Shown piece by piece: positions 54,584 to 58,692 of a DNA stretch of 64,000 nt. Position 1 is the stretch's first letter. Every line of letters starts with the position of its first letter. The DNA is from Bifidobacterium mellis (GTDB lineage: Bacteria; Actinomycetota; Actinomycetes; Actinomycetales; Bifidobacteriaceae). The stretch covers positions 186,001-250,000 of the forward strand of contig NZ_KQ033885.1 of NCBI RefSeq assembly GCF_000967265.1. The letters run 5' to 3'. Under the pieces are notes generated by a model. That model was given only the letters and a program-made list of their open reading frames with translations. It ran no database searches and was not told the origin of the DNA. A program made the translations under genes and the position numbers.

Positions 54584-55183
54584 ATGCACATCATCGCCGG
54601 CCGCTTCAAGGGATTCCCCATCCCCGCAGCCCTCAAGGGTACCCGGCCCACTACCGATCGGACCAAGGAGGCCATCTTCTCCCATCTGGAGTCCGAAGGC
54701 CTGCTGTCCGGTGCTCGGGTCCTGGATCTGTTCGCCGGCACCGGGGCTTTGGGATTCGAGGCCCTGTCCCGCGGTGCCCAGAGCCTGGTGGCTGTGGAGT
54801 CTTCCGGTCGTGTCGCCGGACTGCTGTCACGCTCAGCCGCCGGGCTGCGTCACCATCCGGCCTGGGATTCAGCCATGGATATTCGCGTCAGCAGAAACCG
54901 TGCCGAGCGCTTTGTTCGTCCCCTCTCCTCCGGTCATGAGGATGCAGGTCTGTCCGAGGCCTGCTTCGACCTGGTCTTCATGGACCCGCCTTATGACTTT
55001 TCGACTGCGGATTGCCAAAGCATTATGACCGGTCTGACTGGTCAAGGAATGGTGGACGATGGAGGCATGATCGTTCTGGAGCGATCGACACGCACCCCGT
55101 CTCCCACGGCTCCTGACGGATGGGCCATTGATCAGGCTCGCACTTACGGCGAGACAGCAGTCTACTATCTGACGGCCCGCTGA
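54584..55183 (+). CDS. rsmD: 16S rRNA (guanine(966)-N2)-methyltransferase
   Basis: A 199-residue methyltransferase. The frame is open earlier, but the ATG at 54584 gives the expected start MHIIAGRFKGFPI. RPTTDRTKEAIFSHL, the SAM site VLDLFAGTGALGFEALSRGA and the catalytic MDPPYDF are all present. It methylates G966 of 16S rRNA. It is probably co-transcribed with recG; its 3' end overlaps the convergent trmD by 19 bases. Confidence 0.94.
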   Translation: MHIIAGRFKGFPIPAALKGTRPTTDRTKEAIFSHLESEGLLSGARVLDLFAGTGALGFEALSRGAQSLVAVESSGRVAGLLSRSAAGLRHHPAWDSAMDIRVSRNRAERFVRPLSSGHEDAGLSEACFDLVFMDPPYDFSTADCQSIMTGLTGQGMVDDGGMIVLERSTRTPSPTAPDGWAIDQARTYGETAVYYLTAR

Positions 55184-56157
55184 TTATCGCTGCGTTTTAG
55201 GGTTGATCGACCAGATGGTTGATCCAGAGGTCTCGGATGGGTTTCCTGCATGTCCCAGCCCAGGTCCTCCAAGAGACGACGGTCTTGCTTATCAAGGGCG
55301 GAGCAGTCCAATCGGGCAATCAGATCGGGACGGATTCGACTGGTTCGCCTGATGGCCTCGTCGCGCCGGAAACGGTCCACCTTTCCGTGGTCACCGCTGG
55401 TCAGTATCTCGGGCACGGCCATGCCACGCCAGGTGGTGGGACGCGTGTACTGGCGATATTCCAGCAGCGGCTCATCCCCGGTGTAGGACTCCTGCACGAT
55501 GGATTCAGGATTGCCCATGAAGCCGGGCAGGAGCCGGGTTATGGCCTCCAGCATGACCGAGACGGCCACCTCGCCCCCATTGAGCACGTAGTCGCCGATG
55601 GAATACTCTCTGACGTCGACCCCCTGATTCCGGTAGTAGACGGGGATGCGTGCGTCATACCCTTCGTAGCGGCCGCAGCCGAATACCAGCCTCTTCGCCC
55701 GTGACAGCTCTGTTGCGTCGGCCTGGGTGAACAGGGGAGCGGATGGGTTGGGGAAGATCAGGACTTGTTTGGCCGCGCCGGCCTCGTGGTTGTCTGCAGA
55801 TGAATCTGCCTCGGATGCTATGCCGTAGCTTTCGTCGCCGGAACTCTTCCTTGCTTCTTTTCGTTCTTCGGCATCGGCAGTGTCGGCTGTTTGGTCGGTG
55901 GTGGGTTGTTGCAGAGCCGATCCGTCTGTAACGTTCAATAAATCGTCCAGGCATCGGCCCCAGACTTCGGGTTTCATCACCATGCCCGCTCCGCCGCCCA
56001 CCGGAGTGTCATCCACCGAGTGATGCACGTCATGGGTCCAATCGCGCAGATTGTGGGCACGTATGGTCACCAGGCCCTTTTCCTGGGCCTTGCCCAGCAG
56101 ACTGAGTCCGGTTACGTCAAAATATTCGGGGAAGACGGAAACGATATCGATTTGCAT
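55165..56157 (-). CDS. trmD: tRNA (guanine(37)-N1)-methyltransferase with acidic insertion
   Basis: A 330-residue SPOUT methyltransferase from the ATG at 56157. Conserved parts are MQIDIVSVFPEYF, DDTPVGGGAGMVMKP, FGCGRYEGYDARI and SIGDYVLNGGEVA with the knot that binds SAM. It methylates G37 next to the anticodon and prevents frameshifting. Compared with the usual 240-280 residues it carries an extra 50 or so Asp/Glu/Ser/Ala-rich residues (about 78-130), placed after the MVMKPEVW helix. The insert looks disordered. Confidence 0.93.
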   Translation of the reverse strand: MQIDIVSVFPEYFDVTGLSLLGKAQEKGLVTIRAHNLRDWTHDVHHSVDDTPVGGGAGMVMKPEVWGRCLDDLLNVTDGSALQQPTTDQTADTADAEERKEARKSSGDESYGIASEADSSADNHEAGAAKQVLIFPNPSAPLFTQADATELSRAKRLVFGCGRYEGYDARIPVYYRNQGVDVREYSIGDYVLNGGEVAVSVMLEAITRLLPGFMGNPESIVQESYTGDEPLLEYRQYTRPTTWRGMAVPEILTSGDHGKVDRFRRDEAIRRTSRIRPDLIARLDCSALDKQDRRLLEDLGWDMQETHPRPLDQPSGRSTLKRSDNQRAVR

Positions 56158-56409
56158 GTGACCAACTCTACCCAAGCTTGTTCGGGTCGGGATCGGGCAG
56201 AGATTGGCACATCTTTAAGTTCGCCTAAAGGTTGATTACGATGGCGAGCTTCGTTTCCAACGAGTCTGTCAGATTAATGGCTGCTGCGTAGCAACTGTTC
56301 GGATATGGTCGGCTCAGTGGGGCTATATCGTCGTCTTGTGTTTGTCGTCATGAGGATTCGTGACAGCGTTGACGGTGAAAAGACAAGGTAAATCTGCATT
56401 TATTCTGAC

Positions 56410-56438
56410 TTGATAGATTAATTTTGTGGCAGTAAACT
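56410..56438 (+). promoter_or_regulatory. Promoter of the XRE-peptidase module
   Basis: TTGATA (56410-56415) and TAAACT (56433-56438) with a 17-base spacer form one of the best sigma70-like pairs in the window, in an AT-rich patch 70 bases before the first gene of the module. The rest of the 56158-56507 gap holds no gene. Confidence 0.6.
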
Positions 56439-56483
56439 CAAACTCAGATAGTAAAATAAAATAATGCTCCAAATATCAAACAC

Positions 56484-56495
56484 AAACGCGCGTTT
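56484..56495. promoter_or_regulatory. Perfect palindrome before the module's first ribosome site
   Basis: AAACGCGCGTTT is a perfect 12-base palindrome directly before the AAGGAG of the first gene and about 45 bases after the -10 box. It is a natural candidate for autorepression by the XRE domain encoded downstream. Confidence 0.45.
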
Positions 56496-56507
56496 TAAGG
56501 AGACTCC

Positions 56508-57131
56508 TTGGAAAAACTTGAGCTCATCCGTCAGAGCCTCATGCCAATCAATGATGCCCTTCCAACATTGTTACCGCAGGCTAGGCTTCGCTCACTGTCG
56601 GCCATGAACACGCTTGGCACTCCTCGAATTAAGTATCCGAAGCTCTATGCAGACAACTTCAATGCAACGCTCCGCGCAGAAATCGCAGATGAGCCAATCG
56701 ACGGCTGGAAACTTACGAAGTCCACCTCTTGTCTTCATCTGCGCAATATCAGTTCAGGCCTCAAGCTTCGATTCCTCAAGAAGTTCAAATTCGAGGGAAG
56801 TGTTCCTCCAGCCGGAACGAACTTACGGCGTAGGGAGGCATGGGTGCAACCAGCCATGTTCGACCAGGAGCTTTCCGGCAAGAAGCCGCTGAGCAACTCA
56901 GAAATTGTCTTGGTTTGGACTGAAGCAAACGGCATTTTTCATTGTTCCGCCTACCAACCTACTGGAACCGGCCGGTTTCCTAAGGGCGCTCCCTGTATCG
57001 CTCTCATGGTTCTTCAGATGGGTGAGGGTTTCAACGGTATGGCATTTAACGGTGATGACGAAGAAAACGAGCTGTTGGTCCCACGCTCAAATACAATTGT
57101 CCAAGAAGAAAAGGAAGAGACGAACGGATGA
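56508..57131 (+). CDS. Unknown protein, first gene of an XRE-peptidase module
   Basis: A 207-residue soluble protein that I do not recognise. It starts at a TTG with AAGGAG five bases upstream. It is Lys/Arg-rich with alternating hydrophobic patterns (LVWTEANGIFHCSAYQPTG, IALMVLQMGEGFNGM), so a folded alpha/beta domain is likely, with an acidic tail (DDEENELL). Its codon use and base content are more AT-rich than the neighbours. The stop overlaps the next gene (ATGA). By position it could be the toxin partner of a two-gene toxin-antitoxin unit. Confidence 0.7.
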   Translation: MEKLELIRQSLMPINDALPTLLPQARLRSLSAMNTLGTPRIKYPKLYADNFNATLRAEIADEPIDGWKLTKSTSCLHLRNISSGLKLRFLKKFKFEGSVPPAGTNLRRREAWVQPAMFDQELSGKKPLSNSEIVLVWTEANGIFHCSAYQPTGTGRFPKGAPCIALMVLQMGEGFNGMAFNGDDEENELLVPRSNTIVQEEKEETNG

Positions 57132-58237
57132 ATGAGTTCAACCCCACGCGCATTGAGCTTGCTCGGAAGTATCGGGGTTGGACCAAAAAAGAGCTTGCCG
57201 AGCATTCTGGCATGACCCCGACCTACATTGGCATTCTGGTTGGCAATCCGACTGCGAATCTTACGGAATCAAGCATTGAAAAGATAGCCTATGCGACAAG
57301 CCTTCCATTGTCTTTCTTTATGCTGCGCGAGCCAGGTCTTGACTGGAATCGTCTAGCCTTTCGCCGCAAGAAAAGAATCACACTGAATCTCAGTAACCGC
57401 ATCTGCGCGGAGTTCGAAATGTTGACGGACATGGTCTCCAGGGTGAGTTCGATGTCAAATGTGCCGGATGATACTGCCTCCTGGCTTGATGAGATTGCGC
57501 CTACCTTGGACCCGCGGGCACAGGGAGTCCGCGACATCGCGGCCAACACGCGTGCGATACTGGGTCTGCCTTCCACGGGAGCGGTGCGCAACATGATTCG
57601 AATCGTGGAACGTAAAGGAGTGATCATTGCGCCGCTGACGACGAAGGTGGCTGATTCAGTCAGTGATGGAGTTACTTACCCAGGCAAGGCTCTTATAGGC
57701 TATTTTCCAGAAAACAAGCCTGGCGACCGGCTCAGATTTACTATTGCTCATGAGCTGGGTCATCTGGTGCTGCACCGGTACCGCCGTCCCAAGGATGTGT
57801 CCTTGATGGAGAGGGAGGCTAACGAGTTCGCTGGTGAATTCCTTCTTCCTGAGTCTGACGCACGAGCGGTCATCAGCCCGAGCATGATGCTCGAGGACTA
57901 CCTGTACGTAAAGTCCGGGTGGGGAATTTCCGTTGGTGCGGCTGTGCGCAGAGCTTTCGATTTGGGCCTGATCGATGGGGACAAATACAAATCCCTATAC
58001 GTTCGCATGGCACAGCGTCACTGGATAAAGCATGAGCCCGTAGAGGTCAAGACGGAGCATCCGGTGCGTCTTGCTCAAATGCTCGGCCGTGCGTTTGGCG
58101 GACTGGACGATACCGGTCGTTCTACGGTGCCCAGGGATGGGATTGAGGGATTCCTTGGCATTCCTTTTGAACTGGCGAACGATTGGTGTGACAACAGGCT
58201 GACGGAAAAGGCGGCGAGCTGGACGATCATGAGATAG
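57128..58237 (+). CDS. XRE regulator fused to ImmA/IrrE-type metallopeptidase
   Basis: A 369-residue two-domain protein. Residues 1-60 are an XRE helix-turn-helix (ARKYRGWTKKELAEHSGMTPTYIGILVGN). Residues about 160-265 are the peptidase domain with the zinc-binding HExxH of IAHELGHLVLH (near 205) and EREANEFAGEFLLPES downstream. This layout occurs in phage-repressor proteases and in antitoxins of the XRE-COG2856 type, including the RosmerTA defence system. Translation is coupled to the upstream unknown gene. The base content points to transfer. Confidence 0.85.
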   Translation: MNEFNPTRIELARKYRGWTKKELAEHSGMTPTYIGILVGNPTANLTESSIEKIAYATSLPLSFFMLREPGLDWNRLAFRRKKRITLNLSNRICAEFEMLTDMVSRVSSMSNVPDDTASWLDEIAPTLDPRAQGVRDIAANTRAILGLPSTGAVRNMIRIVERKGVIIAPLTTKVADSVSDGVTYPGKALIGYFPENKPGDRLRFTIAHELGHLVLHRYRRPKDVSLMEREANEFAGEFLLPESDARAVISPSMMLEDYLYVKSGWGISVGAAVRRAFDLGLIDGDKYKSLYVRMAQRHWIKHEPVEVKTEHPVRLAQMLGRAFGGLDDTGRSTVPRDGIEGFLGIPFELANDWCDNRLTEKAASWTIMR

Positions 58238-58264
58238 GTTAAACCAGCTACTAGGAACATCTCC

Positions 58265-58692
58265 ATGAAGACCACATTTGTCAGCGAGATATTCGGAAAG
58301 AACTTTCATACGGGTAGTGTCAAGTCGAAAAGAATCTCAACGGGTCCTTTGTCGCCGGAACAGACAAAGTATGACTGGAACCGCGAGGGCTAGATTCGTC
58401 CAGAATTATTGCAGGCGCGGCGAAGTTTGGAAAATCAACGGACGGGTTGCTTAGTCTGGTCGATAATGAATGTAAGTTGTTCGAAACCGCGTCAGTGCAA
58501 ACAGCAAATCTCAATGCTATCAACTTTCCCAAACCTGTTCGGGTAAGGCGTGCGCGCCAGGAGAGGTACGCCTGCTGGTGCTACACTGTCTGGGTCTACA
58601 AGTCGCGTATGAATCCGGCTTGGAAGATGTCATCAACGCAGCCAGAGAGCTATAACCGTTGCGTAAACAGCAATGAGAGCGGCATCGGATGA
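58265..58692 (+). pseudogene. Decayed reading frame after the XRE-peptidase gene
   Basis: A 42-codon frame (58265-58393; MKTTFVSEIFGKNFHTGSVK at its start) has an AGGA eight bases upstream. It stops at TAG 58391-58393, and a second frame then runs on from about 58375 to 58692 (GLDSSRIIAGAAKFGKSTDG). Joined by one frameshift the two would make a protein of about 145 residues. AT-richer content continues to about 58550. It may be the wreck of a third module gene, or unrelated frames. I recognise no family. Confidence 0.25.

Follow-up and report, generated by a model that had tools for sequence, protein, structure and literature searches.

Positions 56,410 to 58,237 of a 64,000-nucleotide stretch of Bifidobacterium mellis DNA (assembly GCF_000967265.1, contig NZ_KQ033885.1, positions 186,001 to 250,000 of the forward strand; hereafter the window) carry a two-gene module that, judged from its sequence, is almost certainly a RosmerTA toxin-antitoxin or defence operon, with the toxin candidate rmrT preceding the antitoxin candidate rmrA. 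The reading favoured here, with a probability of about 0.6, is that this operon sits on a small insert moving between related species, that RmrT docks on the sliding clamp DnaN through its peptide QPAMF, and that RmrA restrains RmrT. The assignment to the RosmerTA family is ordinary and well supported, and the proposed DnaN target may hold for much of the family. The central features are as follows.

56508..57131, + strand: rmrT, toxin candidate of 207 residues, TTG start; matched by PADLOC RmrT model PDLC03939 over residues 3-200 (E 7.6e-13)
57128..58237, + strand: rmrA, antitoxin or regulator candidate of 369 residues, ATG start, XRE helix-turn-helix (HTH) and M78 (ImmA/IrrE) peptidase domain; PADLOC RmrA model PDLC03953 (E 3.4e-71), Pfam Peptidase_M78 (E 1.6e-16)
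56847..56861, + strand: codons of Q114-P-A-M-F118 of RmrT, candidate sliding-clamp-binding motif, in a coil that follows helix 106-112 and precedes strand 132-140 in the structural model
57749..57763, + strand: codons of the zinc motif HELGH (residues 208-212 of RmrA); H208, E209 and H212 invariant in 16/16 aligned RmrA proteins

A preliminary description made from the letters alone had reported a TTG-start open reading frame (ORF) of 207 residues coupled through ATGA to an XRE/HExxH frame, in an AT-richer patch between trmD and an MFS gene. All of this was borne out: the stop codon of rmrT and the start codon of rmrA overlap as ATGA, trmD lies on one side and the MFS gene on the other, and the guanine-cytosine content is 50-54% in the three 1-kb bins covering the module against about 60% around it. 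The same description had proposed a RosmerTA-type unit in which the protein of unknown family is the effector and the XRE-peptidase its controller. Searches with defence-system hidden Markov models support this proposal, since the first protein matched the RmrT model cited above (46.6 bits) and the second matched 14 PADLOC RmrA models. Membership in a housekeeping family would have spoken against the idea, but the 207-residue protein matched nothing at all in Pfam, NCBIfam or PHROGs at E ≤ 1.

Among 396 genomes of the phylum, PDLC03939 matched once, in the window's own genome, and it matched none of 14 control genomes. When the single RmrT protein was used as query, no relative was detected in phage or plasmid records (tblastn, E ≤ 0.01) or in viral contigs; distant relatives in all three kinds of record were reached solely via the RmrA neighbour. 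One candidate relative, L008 from Hyphomonas, was rejected because its match covered 20 residues and its neighbourhood was unrelated. An iterative profile search, continued until it stopped growing, delimited the subfamily of the window's RmrT as 20 upstream genes including near-copies. The resulting profile matched no shuffled sequence, and beyond the subfamily it hit only additional copies of the four Bifidobacterium genes described below and the upstream neighbour in L062. PADLOC labels many other partners RmrT as well, nine of its RmrT models matching members of a 36-protein set and nine matching members of the 56 new partner proteins introduced below. Searches against structure databases, also suggested in the preliminary description, were negative: no relative was found in the PDB with the RmrT profile, nor in the PDB or BFVD by Foldseek at E ≤ 0.001.

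The Peptidase_M78 match of RmrA was above the Pfam cut-off, while all matches of its N-terminal HTH to Pfam HTH families were under theirs. RmrA also matched the spr1629 model (NF052239) over residues 7-319 (E 3.8e-27), and its relatives were found in 343 plasmid records and 34 phage records (tblastn, E ≤ 0.001). The single protein had no match in the PDB at E ≤ 0.001; its profile retrieved 9vzy_A, a chain of 393 residues aligned at profile positions 6-283, from the HTH into the M78 domain (E 8.5e-18). This entry, for which a literature search turned up no paper naming it, is a possible template for RmrA.

The preliminary description depended on the two genes being conserved together, and they are. 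Within the genus, rmrT and rmrA were both present in the same 4/27 genomes, the other three carriers corresponding by coordinates to Bifidobacterium asteroides VRA_9sq, Bifidobacterium sp. 7101 and B. polysaccharolyticum W8117, whose RmrT proteins are 98, 98 and 95% identical to that of the window. Fifteen neighbourhoods from plasmids and phages were inspected, and in 13 the RmrA gene directly followed a gene or ORF of about 200-265 residues, "hypothetical" where annotated; the exceptions were L049, without an upstream gene, and L046, whose upstream neighbour looks broken. Eight of the 29 class-level loci (L015-L043) had, on inspection, no RmrT-like neighbour (L024, L031, L035, L038, L040-L043). 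An upstream ORF of at least 140 residues was present in 76/80 viral-contig loci; under a stricter rule, a partner of 180-290 residues stood directly upstream of 71 of the 75 testable RmrA ORFs in these loci, compared with 2 of 38 other ORFs of at least 300 residues. In a second set of loci, 146 of 158 RmrA genes had a partner. L049 and 12 loci of the second set held RmrA-like genes without an RmrT-sized upstream gene; these may be lone regulators or have their partners in another order. By their record annotation, several plasmid RmrA relatives have further defence-like neighbours: nucleotidyltransferase and SAVED genes in L052, nucleotidyltransferase and ThiF-type genes in L049, an anti-phage dCTP deaminase in L053, and Abi family genes in L045 and L047.

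The module is carried by a 2.36-kb insert between trmD and the MFS gene, with the following edges and tail.

56163..56211, no strand: left copy of an imperfect direct repeat on the trmD side (approximate ends); in the empty site of genome G011, 49 bp (L201:5793-5841) fall within the match of each edge
58521..58569, no strand: right copy of the imperfect direct repeat on the MFS side (approximate ends), by the same coverage of the G011 empty site
58238..58520, no strand: insert tail without a recognised intact gene, holding a 42-residue piece and an 81-residue ORF; 58240-58520 occurs in the same 4/27 genomes only

In 13 of the 27 genus genomes trmD stands beside a close MFS homolog, and this site is empty in nine and filled in four, with distances between the match ends of 225-263 bp and about 2.6 kb, respectively. 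G011, the closest genome by TrmD (95%) and MFS (99%) protein identity, has an empty site; homology to it extends up to 56211 and resumes from 58521. The direct repeat of about 49 bp is imperfect, 21 of 25 core positions being identical between the two window copies. Neither the 42-residue piece nor the 81-residue ORF, which runs past the insert, had a Pfam match, and the tail is perhaps the remnant of a third gene.

Per 250-bp bin between 56500 and 58500 the window is 98.0-100% identical to L005 and 94.8-99.6% identical to L006, and in these two comparisons the left-flank bins fall to 83.6 and 84.4%. Identity to L007 is 76.8-97.2%, no better than that of the L007 flanks. Since identity to the module of another species reaches 98-100% while the flanks fall to 84%, recent exchange is suggested. 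Exchange of the pair at a fixed site probably took place between some of these species, although stronger constraint on the module may also account for the identities. No recombinase gene was seen in the insert, and exchange may have proceeded by recombination in the flanks or through a recombinase since lost. For bifidobacteria, this is an example of a defence pair that occupies a fixed site in some genomes, is missing from it in others and has apparently passed from species to species.

Clamp-binding peptides were sought in RmrT because RipA, a Rosmer toxin of Streptococcus pneumoniae described in December 2025, has DnaN as an interaction partner and can be suppressed by mutations in the hydrophobic pocket of that protein (PMC12795458), and because a bacterial clamp-binding consensus, QL(S/D)LF with variation, is published (PMC9690074). 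In the model of the window's RmrT the QPAMF peptide (residues 114-118) lies in a coil, with a mean predicted local distance difference test score (pLDDT) of 72 for residues 111-120. Two models, from different RmrT families, place the motif directly after a corresponding helix and before the second sheet. Among the four Bifidobacterium loci, the peptide reads QPAMF in the window, L005 and L006 and QPAML in L007.

Over whole proteins, the pattern Q..[LMI]F (QxxLF type) occurred in 20 of 84 non-redundant upstream proteins (mean 4.0 and maximum 12 in 500 shuffles). Within the zone at 45-75% of the chain of RmrT-position proteins it was found in 16/82 proteins of the first set, with a mean of 1.6 and a maximum of 8 in 1000 zone shuffles; when Q..[LIMF].[LIF] was counted as well, the number rose to 40/82 (mean 9.6, maximum 21). 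An N-terminal stretch of equal size gave 4/82 and the reversed zone 9/82. QxxLF sites numbered 19 in 18,629 RmrT residues against 9 in 47,592 RmrA residues (8 of 125 RmrA proteins). The controls relied on were the shuffles, the N-terminal stretch, the reversed zone, the RmrA proteins and the second set; the frequency in other ORFs (1/285) is a poor control, as many such ORFs are not genes.

Nine upstream ORFs had been dropped by eye before these counts: four in the wrong frame (L016, L027, L030, L032; another ORF was retained for L016 alone) and five that do not resemble RmrT (L024, L031, L035, L038, L041). No partner was chosen for L010, L040, L042, L043 and L049, and for L046, whose neighbour looks frameshifted, the two pieces were treated separately and then excluded from the 82-protein zone test.

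The QxxLF pattern had been picked after the first set was seen, which counts against a clamp target, and for this reason 160 more loci were fetched and the same test was repeated. RmrA was found in 158 of them, 12 had no partner by the rule, 57 of the 146 partners were removed because they shared 50% identity or more with the first set, and thinning of the other 89 left 56. With the test unchanged, QxxLF was present in 16/56 (mean 1.3, maximum 6) and the broader pattern in 29/56 (mean 7.4, maximum 15), the N-terminal stretch giving 4/56 and the reversed zone 7/56. Examples of the peptide are QLSLF, QISLF, QFDLF and QPTLF. A plain MAFFT alignment of the 56 new proteins had the majority consensus NxxQxxLF, whose Q, L and F occur in 32, 34 and 42 rows, respectively, and stand among the 14 most conserved columns.

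Further observations weigh on the same side as the choice of pattern. About half of the RmrT-position proteins fit neither pattern (42/82 and 27/56). Pattern-free motif discovery in the 45-75% zone returned Q-x-x-[LF]-[FD] in third place at width 5 and in fourth place at width 6, while at width 7 it was outside the four motifs shown; over whole RmrT proteins the structural motifs RFKK and ELSxP were returned and the clamp motif was absent. The window's own subfamily (alignment A4, 11 rows) is loose at the motif column, with Q in six rows and N in four, and within A4 QxxLF occurs in the window's protein alone, its ortholog in L007 having QPAML. Profile comparison by hhalign found no link between the window's family and A9 (3.2%) or A10 (1.7%). 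RmrA scored 95.4 bits against an equivalog cut-off of 335 for NF052239 (RipB, spr1629), well below the level of a RipAB equivalog. Finally, the RosmerTA toxin of the Gordonia phage Kita depolarises membranes (PMC10440598). The case for the clamp mechanism is weaker for the window's own subfamily than for the family. We consider it an even chance that most RosmerTA toxins, the window's included, form one structural family too diverged to align, whose central loop is a clamp-binding peptide occupying the DnaN pocket.

On balance the window toxin likely binds DnaN and halts replication unless restrained by RmrA, a view drawn from its sequence and from that of the family. In the mechanism proposed, RmrT would be a soluble toxin with a helix pair and a two-sheet fold, and the QPAMF peptide in its central loop would dock in the protein-binding pocket of DnaN so that replication stops. 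RmrA would keep RmrT in check, and its HTH would repress the operon at a palindrome near the start site. RmrT would be set free when a phage infects or RmrA is lost, and DNA copying would stop. The putative substrate of the M78 domain may be RmrT, RmrA itself or something else. By analogy with published relatives, the window's copy would be toxic, neutralised by its partner and active in phage defence.

An operon of the same family whose toxin acts elsewhere, either on membranes as the Kita phage RmrT does or through an enzyme activity, is the foremost alternative, although we regard it as unlikely; QPAMF would then be a chance match. RosmerTA toxins are diverse, including the depolarising one (PMC10440598), and the window's own subfamily does not keep the motif. 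Yet the window's RmrT has no transmembrane-like stretch, its highest 19-residue Kyte-Doolittle mean being 1.07, and a chance QxxLF in the zone of one protein is expected at about 2% (mean 1.6/82 in shuffles), whereas the family rate is about ten times that. It is less probable still that the clamp recruits RmrT, as a PD-(D/E)XK-like nuclease or a DNA binder, to replicating DNA, where it would damage the DNA and not just block the clamp. The catalytic D and (D/E)xK were not seen by eye among the conserved columns of the alignments A1, A4, A9 and A11. A plain regulator pair, in which RmrA is a repressor and the small protein a co-regulator with no toxic effector, would agree with the annotation of some phage RmrA relatives as cI-like repressors or regulators. 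The PADLOC RmrT match and the conserved neighbourhood speak otherwise, as do the published relatives, which are toxin-antitoxin pairs (PMC10440598, PMC12795458), and we hold this explanation to be very improbable.

Compared with known systems, the module shares with RosmerTA the two-gene, toxin-first order, the XRE-M78 antitoxin, a toxin matched by an RmrT model and the stop/start overlap; it differs in that its RmrT match is modest and that the copy is known from sequence alone. RosmerTA has also been reported in Streptococcus thermophilus (PMC12322248). RipAB of S. pneumoniae (Spr1630-Spr1629, PMC12795458) likewise pairs an XRE-ImmA type antitoxin with a separate toxin, and it shares the proposed target DnaN and the spr1629 model match. 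It differs in the bit score given above, in that RipA is likened to RmrT by description and not by sequence, and in that the best five of 14 records scanned with the spr1629 model adjoin A10 toxins, a group without a profile link to the window's RmrT family. The Caulobacter crescentus toxin SocB of SocAB, likened here by description, binds the sliding clamp via the usual clamp-binding motif (PMC9690074), but SocB has no sequence or structure similarity to RipA according to PMC12795458. The Kita system, also compared by description, has an RmrA-type antitoxin and was tested for anti-phage activity (PMC10440598); the C-terminal region of its depolarising toxin is predicted at the membrane, whereas the window's RmrT has no such hydrophobic stretch.

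Among the literature found, a RosmerTA toxin mechanism is published for two systems, one clamp-directed and one membrane-directed. The main text of PMC12795458 contains neither the word "motif" nor the word "consensus", and a search of open PMC papers turned up none that connects RosmerTA toxins with a clamp-binding motif, preprints and most subscription papers being beyond its reach. If most RosmerTA toxins do share a clamp-binding loop, they would form a widespread class of replication-stopping toxins in phage defence and prophages. RmrA-like genes are present in hundreds of plasmid records and in phages, and a short motif would predict the target for a large share of the associated toxins, a prediction testable by a few residue replacements.

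Three features precede or overlap the rmrT start.

56410..56438, + strand: sigma-70-like promoter TTGATA-17-TAAACT from a promoter scan, kept in 3/4 loci
56484..56495, no strand: palindrome AAACGCGCGTTT with a conserved core, candidate operator to which the XRE domain of RmrA would bind
56497..56509, no strand: perfect inverted repeat AAGGAG-A-CTCCTT, spanning the ribosome site and the start codon

The promoter string named in the preliminary description is present, but its rating as good did not hold: the scan found 2 promoter-like sites against 2.0 in shuffles, and the -10 box differs in one of the four aligned loci (L005). The perfect palindrome reported at the ribosome site was confirmed and is the single exact copy within the window. 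Its core AACGCGCGTT is invariant in 4/4 aligned loci and its first A is G in one; we infer that it serves as the operator. In 500 mononucleotide shuffles of 56410-56520, at least two such inverted repeats occurred in 4 and at least one in 39.

In alignment A9 of another RmrT family (e.g. L111, L096, L070), a C-terminal tail D-x-E-x-x-I-x-R-K is common as a consensus and is not invariant; RmrA could bind or cut there, or the tail could act as a degradation tag. The neighbouring TrmD (window 55165-56157, - strand) carries a mid-protein insertion, about 60 residues long, in which acidic and small residues abound; 280 of its residues align to a 221-position model, and matches to several genus genomes break at the insertion.
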